64,000 nucleotides of DNA from the NCBI GenBank assembly GCA_020723285.1, contig DYJE01000010.1:62001-126000 (forward strand), in the 5' to 3' direction. The position numbers and the translations under genes are program-made. Below, piece by piece: positions 1 to 7,790 of this stretch. This stretch comes from Desulforapulum autotrophicum (lineage in GTDB: Bacteria > Desulfobacterota > Desulfobacteria > Desulfobacterales > Desulfolunaceae). The notes under the pieces were generated by a model. It saw only the letters and a list, made by a program, of their open reading frames with translations, ran no database searches and was not told where the DNA came from. Within the stretch, counting starts at the first letter, position 1, and each line of letters begins with the position of its first letter.

Positions 1-434
1 TCGATAAGCCGCTGATAGGCGTCGGCTTCTTCCATCGGGGTGAAGTCTTCACGCTGGATGTTTTCCACAATGGCCATTTCCAGCATTTCTTTGTCGCTAA
101 GGTCTTTCACCACCACAGGGATGGATTCAAGTCCCGCCATTTTCGACGCCCGGAGACGCCGTTCTCCGGCAACAAGCTCGTATCCGCTGTCCGCCTTCCT
201 GACGATGAGGGGCTGGATCACCCCCTGTTCCGCGATGGACTGACAGAGTTCCGCCAGTTCCTCGTCGGAAAAAATATGCCGGGGCTGATAACGGTTGGGC
301 TCGATGAGATTTATGTCGCACATGAAATAATCCGCCGAACCGTCCACAGGCATGTCCGGTTCAGGGATCAGGGCGCTCAATCCCCGGCCCAGACCTTGTT
401 TTTTCCGTCCTTTCGAATTTTTCAAATCAGCCAT
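1..434 (-). CDS. parB: Chromosome-partitioning protein ParB, N-terminal part (cut by window edge)
   Basis: Only the first 144 residues lie in the window; the rest is beyond position 1. Starting from the ATG at 434, the protein opens with a basic Lys/Gly-rich leader followed by LGRGLSALIP, typical of chromosomal ParB/Spo0J. The CTP-binding core follows: PNRYQPR, then ELVAGERRLRA (the GERR box), then ENIQREDFTPMEEADAY, which matches the conserved ENIQR box of ParB. ParB-CTP clamps load at parS sites and recruit condensin; the partner ATPase ParA is the upstream gene, 62 bases away in the same direction. The helix-turn-helix and dimerisation domains are not visible because of the truncation. I saw no full parS palindrome in the window. 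Confidence 0.93.
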   Translation of the reverse strand, partial: MADLKNSKGRKKQGLGRGLSALIPEPDMPVDGSADYFMCDINLIEPNRYQPRHIFSDEELAELCQSIAEQGVIQPLIVRKADSGYELVAGERRLRASKMAGLESIPVVVKDLSDKEMLEMAIVENIQREDFTPMEEADAYQRLI

Positions 435-496
435 TTTTTCCGACCTTCACAAAGAGAGAAATTGTAACGAGAGCGTCTTTATTGCAGGAAACACGG

Positions 497-1255
497 TTAT
501 CGGGCAACCACTTCCCGTGCAAGGGCCATGTAACACTTGGCACCCACGGAAGCGGCGTCATAGGTAAAAATGGATTCGCCGAAGCTGGGGGCTTCGCTGA
601 GCCTGACGCTCCGGGGAATGCGCGTGGCGAAAACCAGATCCTTGAAATGCTTTTCAGCTTCCTCGGCCACCTGGAAAGACAGGTTGGTCCTTTTGTCGAA
701 CATGGTGAGAAGGATGCCGGTGATTTTAAGGGAGGGATTCAGGCTCTGCTTGATCCGTTTCACGGTCTGCATCAACTGGCTCAGACCCTCCAGGGCGTAA
801 AACTCGCTCTGGAGCGGAACGAGGATGGAATCGGCGGCGGCCATGGCGTTCAGGGTGAGAAGGCTTAAAGACGGCGGACAGTCGATCACCACGTAATCAT
901 AGTTGCCATTGAGCCCGGCCAGAAAATTCTTTAAAATCAGCTCCCGTCCGGCGTCGGACATCATTTCCACTTCAAAACCGATGAGTTCCACCCGTGAAGG
1001 AACCACATCCAGATTCTTGATGCCGCTCGGAACGATAGCGTCCTTGATCTGAACCTCTCCGATCAGCCCGTGGTACAAGGTCTTTTTGACGGAAGGTTTG
1101 TCAATGCCGATCCCGGTGGTGGCGTTGGCCTGGGGATCGCAGTCCACCAGCAGTGTTTTTTTGGACAACTGTGCCAGAGCCGTCGACAGGTTGATCGCCG
1201 TCGTCGTCTTTCCCACCCCACCTTTCTGGTTTGCTATACATATTATTTTTGCCAT
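497..1255 (-). CDS. parA: Chromosome-partitioning ATPase ParA (Soj)
   Basis: Walker-type ATPase of 252 residues that, with ParB, segregates replication origins. The N-terminus has the deviant Walker A signature QKGGVGKTTT near residue 10, including the first lysine typical of the ParA/MinD group, then LLVDCDPQANAT (Walker A'), and VVIDCPPSLSLLTLNA (Walker B) in the middle. Length and layout match chromosomal Soj rather than plasmid ParA with an N-terminal HTH. It is transcribed toward parB in the usual parA-parB order. The 187 bases upstream, up to the MCE gene, hold no evident terminator, so read-through from the lipid transport operon is possible. Confidence 0.96.
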   Translation of the reverse strand: MAKIICIANQKGGVGKTTTAINLSTALAQLSKKTLLVDCDPQANATTGIGIDKPSVKKTLYHGLIGEVQIKDAIVPSGIKNLDVVPSRVELIGFEVEMMSDAGRELILKNFLAGLNGNYDYVVIDCPPSLSLLTLNAMAAADSILVPLQSEFYALEGLSQLMQTVKRIKQSLNPSLKITGILLTMFDKRTNLSFQVAEEAEKHFKDLVFATRIPRSVRLSEAPSFGESIFTYDAASVGAKCYMALAREVVAR

Positions 1256-1442: not shown

Positions 1443-2348
1443 CTATCGCATTCCGGCATCCACCGCTTCCGGCTGGGGTTCTGGGGGAATATTGGACCGT
1501 ATGAGAACGTTCTTTTTCAGGGACTGGACCACCTGATCCACGTTTTCCACCGCAGCCCTGATTTCGCTGACACCGTTTTTCACCGAACCGGTCACCGGTG
1601 GAATATCCCGGCTGCCTTTTTCAATATTGGCGATGATGGACTTCAGCTCGGCGATACGGGCCAGAAGCTCGTTGCCGATTTCATGGACCTTTTCCAGATC
1701 GGCCTGAACTTGATCCACGGCCCTGGGAGCCTTACCCGTGGCTTTTTCCACGTTGGCCATGATCAGTCCCACTTTCTTCTCCACTTCCGACAGGGATTTG
1801 TTGACGCTGGCCATGGCCGTAAACAGCGGCCCTTCAGGCTGTTTGATCCGGGCCGTGATTTCGGCGAGGTCCTGAACGGCACGGATCACCATCTTGGCGG
1901 TTTTTTCGATCTCGAATTCCTTGAGAAGATCCGAGATGGATTTGTTCTCCACCGACCGGATTTCCCCTTCTTCCTCAACAGGCGGCGAGCTTTCGCTTCC
2001 GGGTTTGATGGTGATGTACTTCTTGCCGATATAACTGATGCCCTCCACGGTGGCGGTGGAATCTTTCCTTATTCGCGAGGCGAATTCCTCGTAAATGGCC
2101 ATGGTCACCGTGACCCGGTCGCCCACCAGATTGATTTTCTTCACCTTACCGATGTCCGCGTTGAAGAGCTTGACCGGAGAATTGAGATCCAGATCGTAAC
2201 TCTGGCCGAAGGTCGTGGTGTAAATGACGTTTTTCCTGAACCAGTCCTTTCCCCGGCCCACCAGGACCACCATGCTCAACAACAGGACAAGGACAAGGAT
2301 CACAAAGGTTCCCACCACTTTTTCCATTGTACTGAAACTCAACACCAT
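1443..2348 (-). CDS. MCE/MlaD-family lipid transport protein
   Basis: Protein of 301 residues with one N-terminal transmembrane anchor (about residues 10-28, VILVLVLLLSMVVLVG), then one MCE domain (about 35-115) containing the pattern SPVKLFNADIGKVKKI and SYIGKKYITIKPG. A long helical, coiled-coil-prone region follows (about 140-285, rich in Glu, Lys and Val). MCE proteins form hexameric periplasmic rings that shuttle lipids between inner and outer membranes together with an MlaE permease and an MlaF ATPase; both partner positions are filled immediately upstream. The ATG at 2348 was taken as the start, though an internal ATG at 2327 (MEKVV) would give a more compact signal anchor. No strong ribosome-binding site distinguishes the two. 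Confidence 0.9.
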   Translation of the reverse strand: MVLSFSTMEKVVGTFVILVLVLLLSMVVLVGRGKDWFRKNVIYTTTFGQSYDLDLNSPVKLFNADIGKVKKINLVGDRVTVTMAIYEEFASRIRKDSTATVEGISYIGKKYITIKPGSESSPPVEEEGEIRSVENKSISDLLKEFEIEKTAKMVIRAVQDLAEITARIKQPEGPLFTAMASVNKSLSEVEKKVGLIMANVEKATGKAPRAVDQVQADLEKVHEIGNELLARIAELKSIIANIEKGSRDIPPVTGSVKNGVSEIRAAVENVDQVVQSLKKNVLIRSNIPPEPQPEAVDAGMR

Positions 2349-2375
2349 AATGCGTCTATCCCATGTATGTTTTTA

Positions 2376-3059
2376 TCATTCCCGGATTTCAGTGACCCGG
2401 CCTTCATGGATTTCAATGATCTTGGCCTGAAAACATCGGCTGAAATCCTCTTCGTATGTGAGAAAGACAAGGGCCATGCCCAGGTCCTGTTTCATCTTCA
2501 GTGTTTCGATCAGGACTTCCAGGGTGTTCCCTTCGGACAGGCAGAATTCCTCGGGGTACTCCAGAAGCATGATCCTGGGTTTTTTGGCGATTTCCCGGAC
2601 CATCATGGCGCTTTTGATATCCGGGGCCCCCAGGTTCGTCGGTCTCTGGTCCAGAATGGCATCAATGCCGAACGCCGTGCAAAGATCAAAAATTTCGGCG
2701 TCCAGTTGCGCCGTGAGATTATTCTCAAAATACGCCTGGCCCAGAAGCAGGTTTTCCCTGACAGATCTGTTGCTGATCAGCGCCGTGTCCGCAGCCAGAT
2801 ACCCTATGGTCTTTTTGGCGTTAAGAAGCCTCCGGTAATCGGAAAAGAACAGCGTTTCGCCATGGTACCGGTACGATCCGGACACCGGATAGGCCAGGGT
2901 CGCCAGCCCTTTGAAAAAGAGATGGGCGTCGTTGGCCGAATCGGTCCGGATTTGATATACACCGCCCGCCTCCAGAACCAGCGTCAAGGGGCCGATACCC
3001 TTTCCTTTTCCAGCCTTTTCCGGCTTGAGGACGTAATCTTTCAATTCAACCAGGGCCAT
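2376..3059 (-). CDS. Degenerate MlaF-like ABC ATPase subunit (probable pseudo-ATPase)
   Basis: It sits between the MCE gene and the MlaE permease, exactly where the MlaF ATPase belongs, and 227 residues is about MlaF size. The ABC fold can be followed: VYQIRTDSANDAHLFFKGLATL occupies the Walker A helix, IGYLAADTALISNRSVRENLL the Q-loop region, and PRIMLLEYPEEF the Walker B. The catalytic residues are gone: no GxxGxGKS/T, Ala in place of the Q-loop Gln, no LSGGQ signature (NLGAPDIKSAMM instead), LLEYPEE instead of LLDEP, and no switch histidine (FLTYEED). The frame is open with no stops and the chemistry of the fold is retained, so it looks like a kept, non-hydrolysing subunit rather than decay. 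A separate active ATPase, or a non-ATP-driven system, must be assumed. Confidence 0.75.
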   Translation of the reverse strand: MALVELKDYVLKPEKAGKGKGIGPLTLVLEAGGVYQIRTDSANDAHLFFKGLATLAYPVSGSYRYHGETLFFSDYRRLLNAKKTIGYLAADTALISNRSVRENLLLGQAYFENNLTAQLDAEIFDLCTAFGIDAILDQRPTNLGAPDIKSAMMVREIAKKPRIMLLEYPEEFCLSEGNTLEVLIETLKMKQDLGMALVFLTYEEDFSRCFQAKIIEIHEGRVTEIRE

Positions 3060-3082
3060 GATTTTCGCTGACCTTTGTTAGT

Positions 3083-3859
3083 TTAAAGATAAAAAACAGC
3101 GGAGATAAAAATATTGATCACCATGATCCAGAAAAAGCTCTGAACCGCTGTCTTGGACGCGCTCACCGGAATCAGCGTCGACATCTTCCGGGTCTTGAAA
3201 CCCTGGTACAGGCTGATCACCGTCATGGCCACCCCGAAAGACAGGGCTTTCAGAAGGCCCACCACCATGTCCGTTCCCGTGATGGCCTTGGCCACAAGAA
3301 TGAGAAACGCCCCCATGGGCACGTCACTGGCCACCCACACAATCACATACCCGCCGAAAACCGCCACAATGTCAAAAATGATGAACATGCAGAGCACTGC
3401 CGTGGTGATGCCCACAAAGCGGGAGAACGACAATATGCGCATGGGGTCGACCCCGGCCATCTCCAGGGCTTCGATTTCGTTGAACACCGTCATGGAGCTG
3501 ATTTCGATGGTCACCGCCGTGGCCGAACGCAGAATGACCACCAGAGCGGTGATGATGGGCCCAAGCTCCCGGACCACCAGAACCACGGTGACTTTTCCAA
3601 GATCGAAGTCCCCGGACAGCTTGGTGAACTGGATGATCAGCATGGTTCCCACCATCAGGGCGATCGGGATGATGATGGGAAGGGCCTGAACCGCCGTGAA
3701 ATAGATCTGCTCCACCACGGCCCGTTTGATCAGCGCCCTTCCGGCCACGGGCCGTGTGAGAAACAGCTCGAACAGGCGGTACGTGAACGCGAAAATATTG
3801 AGAATGTAATTGATGAACTCCAGCGTCTTCCTGCCGGTGTAGCCCGCAATGAATTTCAT
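3083..3859 (-). CDS. MlaE-family ABC lipid transport permease
   Basis: Integral membrane protein of 258 residues with about five hydrophobic segments and the MlaE/YrbE signature: VRELGPIITALVV, then EISSMTVFNEIEALEMAGVDP, the conserved cytoplasmic Glu-containing stretch, then LSFGVAMTVISLYQGF near the C-terminus. MlaE permeases dimerise in the inner membrane and couple an MlaF ATPase to the periplasmic MCE ring for phospholipid transport. It is the first gene of the operon permease - ATPase-like - MCE. The permease looks fully conserved, in contrast to the adjacent ATPase-like subunit. The start ATG at 3859 gives a usual N-terminal amphipathic leader. Confidence 0.93.
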   Translation of the reverse strand: MKFIAGYTGRKTLEFINYILNIFAFTYRLFELFLTRPVAGRALIKRAVVEQIYFTAVQALPIIIPIALMVGTMLIIQFTKLSGDFDLGKVTVVLVVRELGPIITALVVILRSATAVTIEISSMTVFNEIEALEMAGVDPMRILSFSRFVGITTAVLCMFIIFDIVAVFGGYVIVWVASDVPMGAFLILVAKAITGTDMVVGLLKALSFGVAMTVISLYQGFKTRKMSTLIPVSASKTAVQSFFWIMVINIFISAVFYL

Positions 3860-5389: not shown

Positions 5390-6589
5390 ATGAACATCCA
5401 GACAGCCAGAAAAAGAATCCTCGCATCCGCCGAAGAAATCATGGCCGGTTCGGGAATGAATGCGAAAATATCCCATATCGCCGCACGAGCAGGGGTCAGC
5501 GACTCCGTTCTCTACCACTATTTCAAAAACAAGGAAGACCTTCTGTTTTCCATTGCCGAAGAGCGGCTCAGAGACTTAAGGGACGCGATGGAAGAACAGC
5601 TTCTCGGCCTTTCGGACCCGCTCAGCCGTCTGCGCAAGCTGTTCTTTTTCCGGCTCCATTATCTTGATAAAAACAAAAATTACGGCAATCTCCTGATGTT
5701 CGAATGCCGTTCGAACATGGCCTTTTACACCCACCCGGCGTTCAGTCAGGCCCGCTGGTTCATGGCCCTTCTGGGCCAGATCCTCAAAGACGGCATGGGC
5801 ACCGGCGTCTTCAGATCCGACCTGAACGTCTGGCTTGTGAGGGACGCGGTGTTCGGCCTCCTTGATCTTGCGAACATCCATCATCTCCTTTCAGAAACAA
5901 CCGGCTCGCTTCAGGACTACGACACCCTGTTCAGCCTTGTGGAACCCATGATCCTAAACAGCCAGAGCCGCGAAGCGTGCCCGGTGGACAAACGGCAGAG
6001 GATATTAAGGGCCGCGGAAACCCTGTTCGCACAAAAGGGGTATGAAAACACCACCATTCAGGATCTCGCCACGGCGGCCGGTGTCGGTGACGGAACGGTT
6101 TACGATTATTTCAGAAACAAGGAAGACGTTCTATTTCATACCCTGAAGGCCGGTTTCCAGCCCTCGGAACACCGGAAAGGATTCCAGGCCCATCTGATGG
6201 TGGCCGAGGACGTCCCGGCCCAGACCCCGTCTGTCCTTGAAAACATCGAAGGGTTCATCCGGCGGCAGTTGCTCATCGGCCTCATACAGCCCTCTTTTGC
6301 CAAACTGTTTATCGTCAACGGAATATTCCATCGAAAATTTTACGATTCCGAAGCGTTCATCGATTTTAACCATTACATGAAAACCCTCGATCAGCTTGTA
6401 CACACTGGTCAGATCGAGGGGACCGTTCGGAACACAATTTCACCTGAAGGCGTAAGGCTCCTTGTTCTCGGTGCTTTCAGCCATCTCACCCTTCGCTGGT
6501 TGATTTCGGATAAAAAGACCGACATCGACAAAGCCGGTGAAATCAACGCCATGACCGATCTGATGATCCGATCCATTTCAACGGATTGA
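5390..6589 (+). CDS. Tandem (double) TetR-family transcriptional regulator
   Basis: A 399-residue protein that is twice the usual TetR length and carries two complete TetR DNA-binding domains. The first is at about residues 5-58 (RKRILASAEEIMAGSG ... IAARAGVSDSVLYHYFKNKEDLLF). The second is at about 198-252 (KRQRILRAAETLFAQKGY ... LATAAGVGDGTVYDYFRNKEDVLF). Each is followed by a helical ligand/dimerisation-type domain of about 140 residues, so it is a genuine gene fusion or internal duplication. It sits 31 bases upstream of HMG-CoA reductase in the same direction, so it probably controls that gene and itself. The start ATG at 5390 follows an AT-rich promoter region (5230-5389); its ribosome-binding site is weak. 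Confidence 0.9.
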   Translation: MNIQTARKRILASAEEIMAGSGMNAKISHIAARAGVSDSVLYHYFKNKEDLLFSIAEERLRDLRDAMEEQLLGLSDPLSRLRKLFFFRLHYLDKNKNYGNLLMFECRSNMAFYTHPAFSQARWFMALLGQILKDGMGTGVFRSDLNVWLVRDAVFGLLDLANIHHLLSETTGSLQDYDTLFSLVEPMILNSQSREACPVDKRQRILRAAETLFAQKGYENTTIQDLATAAGVGDGTVYDYFRNKEDVLFHTLKAGFQPSEHRKGFQAHLMVAEDVPAQTPSVLENIEGFIRRQLLIGLIQPSFAKLFIVNGIFHRKFYDSEAFIDFNHYMKTLDQLVHTGQIEGTVRNTISPEGVRLLVLGAFSHLTLRWLISDKKTDIDKAGEINAMTDLMIRSISTD

Positions 6590-6620: not shown

Positions 6621-7790
6621 ATGAGACAAAGCATCCCCAGAGCCCCAGGACCATCGGACTACAGCCGGGACATGGCTGAACAGAGACTCGCCTTTGTGGA
6701 AAATTTCAGCGGCGTTAAAACCACCCACACCCGGGGTTACTCTTTCGACCCCGCCATCCTTCCCGGCAACATCGAGCATTTTTCCGGCGTGGCCCAGATC
6801 CCCGTGGGGTTCGCCGGCCCCCTTCTCATCAACGGTGAACATGCTCAAGGTGAATTTTTCGTACCCCTGGCCACCACGGAAGGAACTCTTGTGGCCAGCT
6901 ACAACCGGGGGATGAAAGTCATATACGAAAGCGGAGGGGTGAAAACCACCATCCTGGATGACGCCATGCAGAGGGCTCCGGTGTTTCACTTTGAAGACGC
7001 GAGGGGGGCACGGGATTTCGGAATATGGATTGGCGATCATTTCAATGAGATCAAGGCCCAGGCCGAAACCACGACCCGCTCAGGGAAATTGCGAAATATC
7101 GAACAGTACCCCGTGGGCAAGCTGATGTACCTCAGGTTCAATTACACCACCGGAGACGCGGCAGGCCAGAACATGGTGGGCAAAGCCACCTTCGTGGCCT
7201 GCGAATATATCATGGCCCAGTACCCCGGCATCAAACGGTATGTCCTTTCCGGAAACATGGACACGGATAAAAAATCGTCCCGGCTCAACATGCTCCATTC
7301 CAGAGGTAAACGGGTTTCGGCGGAAGTCACCATTCCCGCAGCCGTCATCGAAAACCTCGCCGGAGCCCCGGTGGACGTTCTTTTACAGCAGCGCCAGGTC
7401 AGTTCCCTCGGTAGCTTTCTCGCGGGTTCCAACAACAACGGCTCCCATGCCGCCAACGGCATCACAGCCCTTTTCATCGCAACGGGCCAGGACGTGGCCA
7501 ACGTGGCGGAATCCTGCGCCGGGCTTGTTTATGTGGAAAAAACTTTAGATGGGGACTACTATTTCTCCATCACCCTTCCCTGCCTGATCGTGGGAACTTA
7601 TGGTGGAGGAACAGGACTCGCCACCCAGAAGGAATACTTGGAGCTTCTGGGCTGCCACGGAGCGGGCCATGTCCGAAAATTCGCGGAAATCGTGGCCGGA
7701 ACCGTTCTATGCGGTGAAATCTCCCTGGCCAGCGCCGTCATGGCCGGAGACTGGGTTTCGAGCCATGACAAGTACGGAAGAAACCGCTAA
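6621..7790 (+). CDS. Hydroxymethylglutaryl-CoA reductase
   Basis: Enzyme of 389 residues that makes mevalonate from HMG-CoA with NAD(P)H. The catalytic set can be seen: Glu in LATTEGTLVASYNRG (about residue 87), Lys in NMDTDKKSSRLN (about 216), Asp in ATGQDVANVAES (about 290) and the C-terminal His in GCHGAGHVRKFAE (about 346). The cofactor-binding region has TTGDAAGQNMVGKAT and GSNNNGSHAANG. It is the soluble bacterial form with no membrane domain. A clear ribosome-binding site (AGGAG) precedes ATG 6621. It is downstream of the double TetR gene; no other mevalonate-pathway gene is in the window. The presence of the four-residue catalytic set argues for an active reductase. Confidence 0.93.
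   Translation: MRQSIPRAPGPSDYSRDMAEQRLAFVENFSGVKTTHTRGYSFDPAILPGNIEHFSGVAQIPVGFAGPLLINGEHAQGEFFVPLATTEGTLVASYNRGMKVIYESGGVKTTILDDAMQRAPVFHFEDARGARDFGIWIGDHFNEIKAQAETTTRSGKLRNIEQYPVGKLMYLRFNYTTGDAAGQNMVGKATFVACEYIMAQYPGIKRYVLSGNMDTDKKSSRLNMLHSRGKRVSAEVTIPAAVIENLAGAPVDVLLQQRQVSSLGSFLAGSNNNGSHAANGITALFIATGQDVANVAESCAGLVYVEKTLDGDYYFSITLPCLIVGTYGGGTGLATQKEYLELLGCHGAGHVRKFAEIVAGTVLCGEISLASAVMAGDWVSSHDKYGRNR

Follow-up and report, generated by a model that had tools for sequence, protein, structure and literature searches.

An operon of Desulfobacterales with an MlaE permease, an MCE protein and an ABC-type subunit that retains its predicted fold and none of nine catalytic residues

What is left for an ABC-type subunit to do in a lipid transporter once the residues that would hydrolyze ATP are gone? 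The question is raised by an operon in the window, the whole stretch of 64,000 nucleotides of Desulforapulum autotrophicum DNA that was analysed. The gene found there in the MlaF position, beside the genes of a permease and an MCE protein, encodes what is called here a pseudo-NBD (a catalytically degenerate ABC nucleotide-binding-domain protein). The three genes share one strand in the order MlaE (upstream), pseudo-NBD and MCE (downstream), with gaps of 23 and 27 nt, which bears out the placement in a lipid-transport operon made in an earlier note on this DNA. The operon and its neighbors are as follows.

3083-3859, minus strand: MlaE-family permease, 258 aa (PF02405, 158.5 bits, cut-off 22.5)
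2376-3059, minus strand: pseudo-NBD, 227 aa (from the open reading frame, profiles, predicted structure and alignments)
1443-2348, minus strand: MCE protein, long form, 301 aa (PF02470, 51.5 bits, cut-off 25.1)
3-1255, minus strand: parA and a parB-like open reading frame, directly downstream of the MCE gene
5390-6589, plus strand: protein with two tandem TetR domains, 399 aa (PF00440, two stretches)
6621-7790, plus strand: HMG-CoA reductase, adjoining the double-TetR gene (PF00368, 407.5 bits)

The permease scores 128.3 bits against an NCBIfam subfamily model, under its cut-off of 212.2. The frame of the pseudo-NBD opens with ATG and fills exactly the interval listed, uninterrupted, as the earlier note had read it. 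Against Pfam ABC_tran the window protein reaches 18.8 bits and stays below the threshold of 25, and the same model matches 36 of 45 relatives in alignment A1 at E ≤ 0.01. The NCBIfam models of FtsE, MetN and others give weak matches spanning most of the length of the protein, over most of which PDB sequences of ABC ATPases also align (top match 2it1, 2.5e-9).

The AlphaFold2 model, made from 28 sequences, has a mean pLDDT of 91.1 and a pTM of 0.89. Its closest solved structure is FtsE (Foldseek 3.9e-17; VIA Z 24.9, rmsd 2.7, 222 aligned); for MlaF (6xgz_A) the values are Z 23.3, rmsd 3.1 and 222 aligned, and the structural match to NBDs spans residues 1-227. Because the pLDDT is high and FtsE, MlaF and other NBDs match structurally, the predicted fold is complete; by prediction, then, the protein has the whole ABC NBD fold and belongs by fold to the ABC ATPase superfamily, so that the fold is indeed kept, as had been proposed. 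Membership of a non-ABC family, an alternative that the earlier note had itself raised, was rejected, as none matches better in Pfam, NCBIfam or the structure comparisons. A 462-aa open frame on the plus strand (1683-3071), antisense to the pseudo-NBD and MCE genes, is probably a by-product of codon use.

Under their standard names, the motifs of ABC ATPases are Walker A and Walker B, the Q-loop, the LSGGQ signature and the switch His. Nine sites of our own choice were scored (Walker A Lys and Ser/Thr, Q-loop Gln, three signature residues, Walker B Asp and Glu, and the switch His), with 19 canonical MlaE-linked NBDs as the reference. Aligned with these, the window protein has 0 of the 9 canonical residues, in agreement with the claim that every catalytic motif is missing.

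Walker A: Ala45 at the Lys site, His46 at the Ser/Thr site
Q-loop: Ala90 at the Gln site
Signature: Gly144-Ala145-Pro146 at Ser-Gly-Gly
Walker B: Glu167 at the Asp site, Tyr168 at the catalytic Glu site
Switch: Tyr202 at the His site

By Walker A and B, Q-loop, signature and switch alike, the protein is, as far as its sequence can tell, outside the functional ABC ATPases. Its relatives share the loss: among 98 aligned pseudo-NBDs, neither the Walker A Lys nor the catalytic Glu occurs in any of the 97 readable at the respective site (one gap at each). Canonical residues number none in 54 of the 98, one in 34, two in 8 and three in 2, against six in 1, seven in 9 and nine in 9 of the canonical set. 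The Walker B Asp, retained in 17 of 98, is replaced by Glu in 72 (56/79, 7/9 and 9/10 in the three parts of the alignment described below), and this holds in both branches. Within the window's order, single residues are kept by a few proteins (e.g., the Q-loop Gln in 4/79 and the switch His in 5/79), an Asp precedes the Lys site in 60/79, Ala occupies that site in 64/79, and Arg stands for the catalytic Glu in 54/79. Since relatives from many genomes show a like loss in an open frame, and it recurs across all 98 aligned copies, a frameshift or other sequencing or assembly error, the second alternative raised earlier, is very unlikely.

The family is widespread in the order of the window, the Desulfobacterales, where 86 of 291 genomes, the window's own included, match at E ≤ 1e-12. 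The ortholog places examined number 79 of these 86 (left out: G271, G138, G272, G150, G154, G250 and G097), with MlaE at 75 and MCE at 78; each of the five absences falls at a contig end or no more than 0.7 kb from one. A first scan of the genome contigs with a single protein query had given no match. In a profile search of the class (241 genomes), 63 genomes scored at least 197 bits and G020 scored 129.8, and no other ABC protein exceeded 94.6; by profile score, the pseudo-NBD family stands apart from other ABC proteins. Elsewhere in the phylum, G457, G345 and G443, from other families, have MlaE-NBD-MCE operons with degenerate NBDs, and G381, G415 and G470 show the same order with an NBD that is degenerate by pattern.

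A second branch was met in assemblies named Myxococcota, Deltaproteobacteria and Acidobacteria (L133, L135-L139), all six of which have MlaE-NBD-MCE. The motif loss of their NBDs differs in detail and is equally far-reaching, and one of them (L138) exceeds the Pfam ABC_tran cut-off with 31.1 bits. A profile of this branch (A3) matches 12 of 236 genomes in the phylum of L133, two of them seeds. The ten non-seed loci have MlaE in 10/10 (about 1.5 kb away in L235) and MCE in 9/10, and none of their NBDs has the Walker A Lys or the catalytic Glu. With the same profile, none of 297 genomes in the window's phylum matched; in the phylum of L139 (247 genomes), the seed was the single match, and this Acidobacteria-named case may reflect gene transfer or an assembly under the wrong name.

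The 98 aligned pseudo-NBDs thus comprise 79 from the order, 9 more (three from other families of the phylum and six from the second branch) and 10 from the second branch, which contributes 16 NBDs from another phylum (Myxococcota by assembly name). MlaE is present in 94 of the 98 loci, and the four misses are near contig ends; the order MlaE-NBD-MCE is kept, with direct adjacency missing in a few loci (e.g., about 0.65 kb from MlaE to NBD in L013). L147, L149 and L150, MlaE-NBD-MCE loci in which the NBD has no Walker A pattern, stand outside the 98, L105-L132 were excluded from the count as largely the same genomes again, and L085, at the end of a contig, is fragmentary. Eleven other matches from the class and phylum searches (L155-L165) proved to be ordinary ABC ATPases, as did L078 from the order search, which was retained as a control. 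In 27 of 59 loci, a divergent gene close to the operon (e.g., L032:9536-10432) encodes a protein of about 291 aa with, by eye, a signal-peptide-like start. Neither Pfam nor NCBIfam matches the one member tested, the window has no match to any member, and the protein was rejected as a conserved extra partner. Taken over the loci and alignments, the pseudo-NBD is more than a single odd gene: its operon marks a clade with members in many families and in more than one phylum, carried by many sulfate-reducing bacteria and some others.

The trees bear on how this clade arose. The MlaE tree (53 proteins) puts the 32 pseudo-NBD-linked permeases on one side and 21 others on the other with a support of 100/100, at a split where the program warns of long branches meeting. 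In the NBD tree (63 proteins, several rows with long branches), 26 pseudo-NBDs are separated from 37 true ABC proteins with a support of 99/88, and the 18 canonical MlaE-linked NBDs form one group (100/98). Since the pseudo-NBDs fall outside this MlaF group, descent from MlaF lacks tree support. On these unrooted trees, the simplest reading is that the ATPase subunit lost its activity a single time, no later than the base of the clan, and was retained afterwards. Consistent with retention, the gene is under purifying selection, somewhat looser than that on its partners: the median dN/dS is 0.192 for the NBD (range 0.119-0.401, 52 pairs), 0.139 for MlaE (47 pairs) and 0.145 for MCE (51 pairs), as calculated with our own Nei-Gojobori script on close pairs with dS < 1.5 that are not independent of one another. 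These values also speak against decay as an account of the gene. Its loss of all motifs and a median somewhat above those of its neighbors are what a gene heading for loss might show; however, the open frame in many families, a dN/dS of about 0.19 and a place in the operon that is conserved beyond a single phylum already count against it, so that decay is very improbable.

The best-supported reading, to which we give a probability of roughly 0.55, is that these are MCE transporters of an old branch in which the NBD now serves as a structural or gating subunit, its own ATPase not being the source of power. Two pseudo-NBDs would take the places of MlaF on the two MlaE coupling helices, where they would stabilize the permease dimer or govern its opening. 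Six copies of the MCE protein would form a ring, from which a helical tail would extend into the periplasm, and lipids would flow passively down a gradient or be driven by something besides the pseudo-NBD. Among the possibilities that the earlier note had listed, a transporter driven otherwise is therefore the one that has gained. A stronger statement, that a clade in at least two phyla abandoned ATP hydrolysis, with ATPase-dead NBDs in both seats of MlaE as scaffold or gate and lipids passing through the MCE tunnel passively or with a driving force located outside the cytoplasm, would deserve slightly less than even confidence.

The permease provides one line of evidence. In E. coli, MlaF binds to the coupling helix that links TM2 and TM3 of MlaE, as described in PMC7790496. 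Alignment A6 contains a conserved stretch of MlaE in which E119, M123 and P139 are invariant and E128, E133, M134 and G136 nearly so, and which by our reading includes this helix. Because the stretch stays conserved, something probably still docks on MlaE; the obvious candidate is the NBD-shaped neighbor. The MCE protein provides another, its model having a TM helix (7-32), one MCE domain (strands 40-132) and a helical tail (138-283), with a mean pLDDT of 65 and low confidence in the tail. This architecture resembles that of MlaD proteins of the long type, proposed to span the envelope as a bridge (PMC10665443). The third is a precedent: LetA and PqiA are described in PMC12436622 as membrane proteins of MCE systems that have no ATPase domain, and lipids might move through the pseudo-NBD operon's transporter in the same manner as may hold for LetAB and PqiABC, without NBD power. 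It is because of the conserved coupling helix, the long-MlaD-like MCE protein and this precedent that a transporter not driven by the pseudo-NBD is favored.

The main challenge to this reading is that a pseudo-NBD may share the MlaE dimer with an active ATPase whose gene lies elsewhere, leaving one site inactive, as the earlier note had suggested in proposing a heterodimer or regulatory subunit. The active partner would be the MlaF of a canonical operon or a shared ATPase, such as MceG is for mce loci. Degenerate nucleotide sites are known in ABC exporters, as PMC7756269 describes, and the window's own genome has a complete canonical operon, MlaE-MlaF-MlaD-MlaC-MlaA (G000:C58), whose MlaE, MlaD, MlaC and MlaA exceed the Pfam cut-offs and whose ABC_tran protein in the MlaF position (123.2 bits) has 9 of 9 catalytic residues; another contig (C33) encodes several MCE domains in one frame of 831 aa. 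At least two MlaE genes were counted in 62 of 70 carrier genomes (86 are known). However, the other eight (G034, G142, G177, G186, G191, G213, G248 and G269) have only the MlaE of the pseudo-NBD operon, and the own MlaF as query finds no MlaF-like protein above the ABC background in them, with best scores of 103-137 bits against ordinary ABC matches of up to 144 in the other genomes. In 14 control genomes with a further MlaE, the best scores were 158-550 bits; the two weakest controls, G147 and G070, gave 158 and 165.5, so near the lower end that a very divergent MlaF could escape the test. Genome incompleteness alone would leave about 3.6 of the 70 carriers without a visible canonical system (P = 0.024 for at least eight), so it may account for part of the eight, though probably not for every one; the assembly of G186 consists of one contig, whose ends show no overlap. 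In addition, the single MlaE gene of the operon would be expected to give two like docking sites. Thus, the earlier suggestion stands insofar as an intact MlaF is present in the window's own genome, and as a general rule it is unsupported: an obligatory MlaF partner is made less likely by the eight carriers, in a test blind to more distant ATPases, and an unlinked partner is possible. Overall we regard such a heterodimer as doubtful.

Another proposal keeps the old pocket in use: the pseudo-NBD would bind a protein or a small molecule there, perhaps a nucleotide, and thereby gate the permease. Because the substitutes at the P-loop and at the catalytic Glu are conserved within the order, the region of the pocket does seem to be under constraint. 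Yet the acidic residues that replace Gly-Lys should repel phosphates, and the second branch has different substitutes, which argues against a single common pocket; a ligand sensor is accordingly quite improbable. Still further down the scale, and hardly credible, is the notion that the neighboring ParA ATPase powers the transporter. Its gene does come after the MCE gene in the window, but it is followed there by parB, and no ParA match (E ≤ 1e-3) occurs in the fetched flanks, of differing lengths, of 79 other loci.

The structural or gating role preferred here has points against it as well. Docking of the pseudo-NBD on MlaE is something that we infer, and the further MlaE systems of the 62 carriers could share their MlaF. 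Seen by eye against the one canonical MlaE in alignment A6, these permeases have gained no charged residue in the membrane that could hint at a different source of energy. The low confidence of the MCE tail and an NBD tree without descent from MlaF also weigh on this side.

The operon resembles MlaFEDB and MlaEFD (E. coli, Veillonella) in combining MlaE, an NBD-fold subunit and an MCE protein, and it shares with MlaEFD the long single-MCE protein described in PMC10665443. It differs from them in an NBD that keeps no catalytic residue, in an MlaE beyond the 100/100 branch and in having no MlaA, MlaB or MlaC gene beside it within the window; the pseudo-NBD has 227 aa, compared with 251 for the MlaF of its own genome. 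LetAB and PqiABC, in contrast, use LetA and PqiA as membrane subunits instead of MlaE and have several MCE domains per protein, and in the description given in PMC12436622 they have no NBD-fold subunit. In ABC exporters with a degenerate site, one site stays active. The degraded NBD motifs are a feature common to such exporters (PMC7756269) and the pseudo-NBD operon, which, unlike them, encodes no partner NBD. Searches of the full-text literature, which excluded preprints and most subscription papers, brought up no account of MlaE systems with ATPase-dead NBDs. The known part is thus the permease and MCE families, and the new part is an ABC-fold NBD that would lie outside the functional ABC ATPases.

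Even for Mla there is no agreed account of how ATP hydrolysis relates to the direction of MCE lipid transport: PMC7790496 presents models of export as well as of import. An MlaE-MCE system that has the shape of the NBD and not its motor would allow the structural and the energetic role of the ATPase to be told apart, and the question of whether MCE transport needs ATP could then be tested directly. As the window protein falls under the Pfam ABC cut-off, genes of this kind may be overlooked in annotation; a phylogenomic study of Mla calls MlaF annotations uncertain (PMC10665443).

Two further groups of MlaE-linked NBDs were observed during the survey. In L174, L175, L178, L179 and L180, Walker A is intact, the catalytic Glu is replaced by Asp and the switch His by Ser, and these proteins are possibly weakened ATPases; their genomes also hold second-branch pseudo-NBDs. 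In L183, L185, L188, L189 and L193, the signature reads Gly-Pro-Gly for Ser-Gly-Gly, and the other residues checked are intact.
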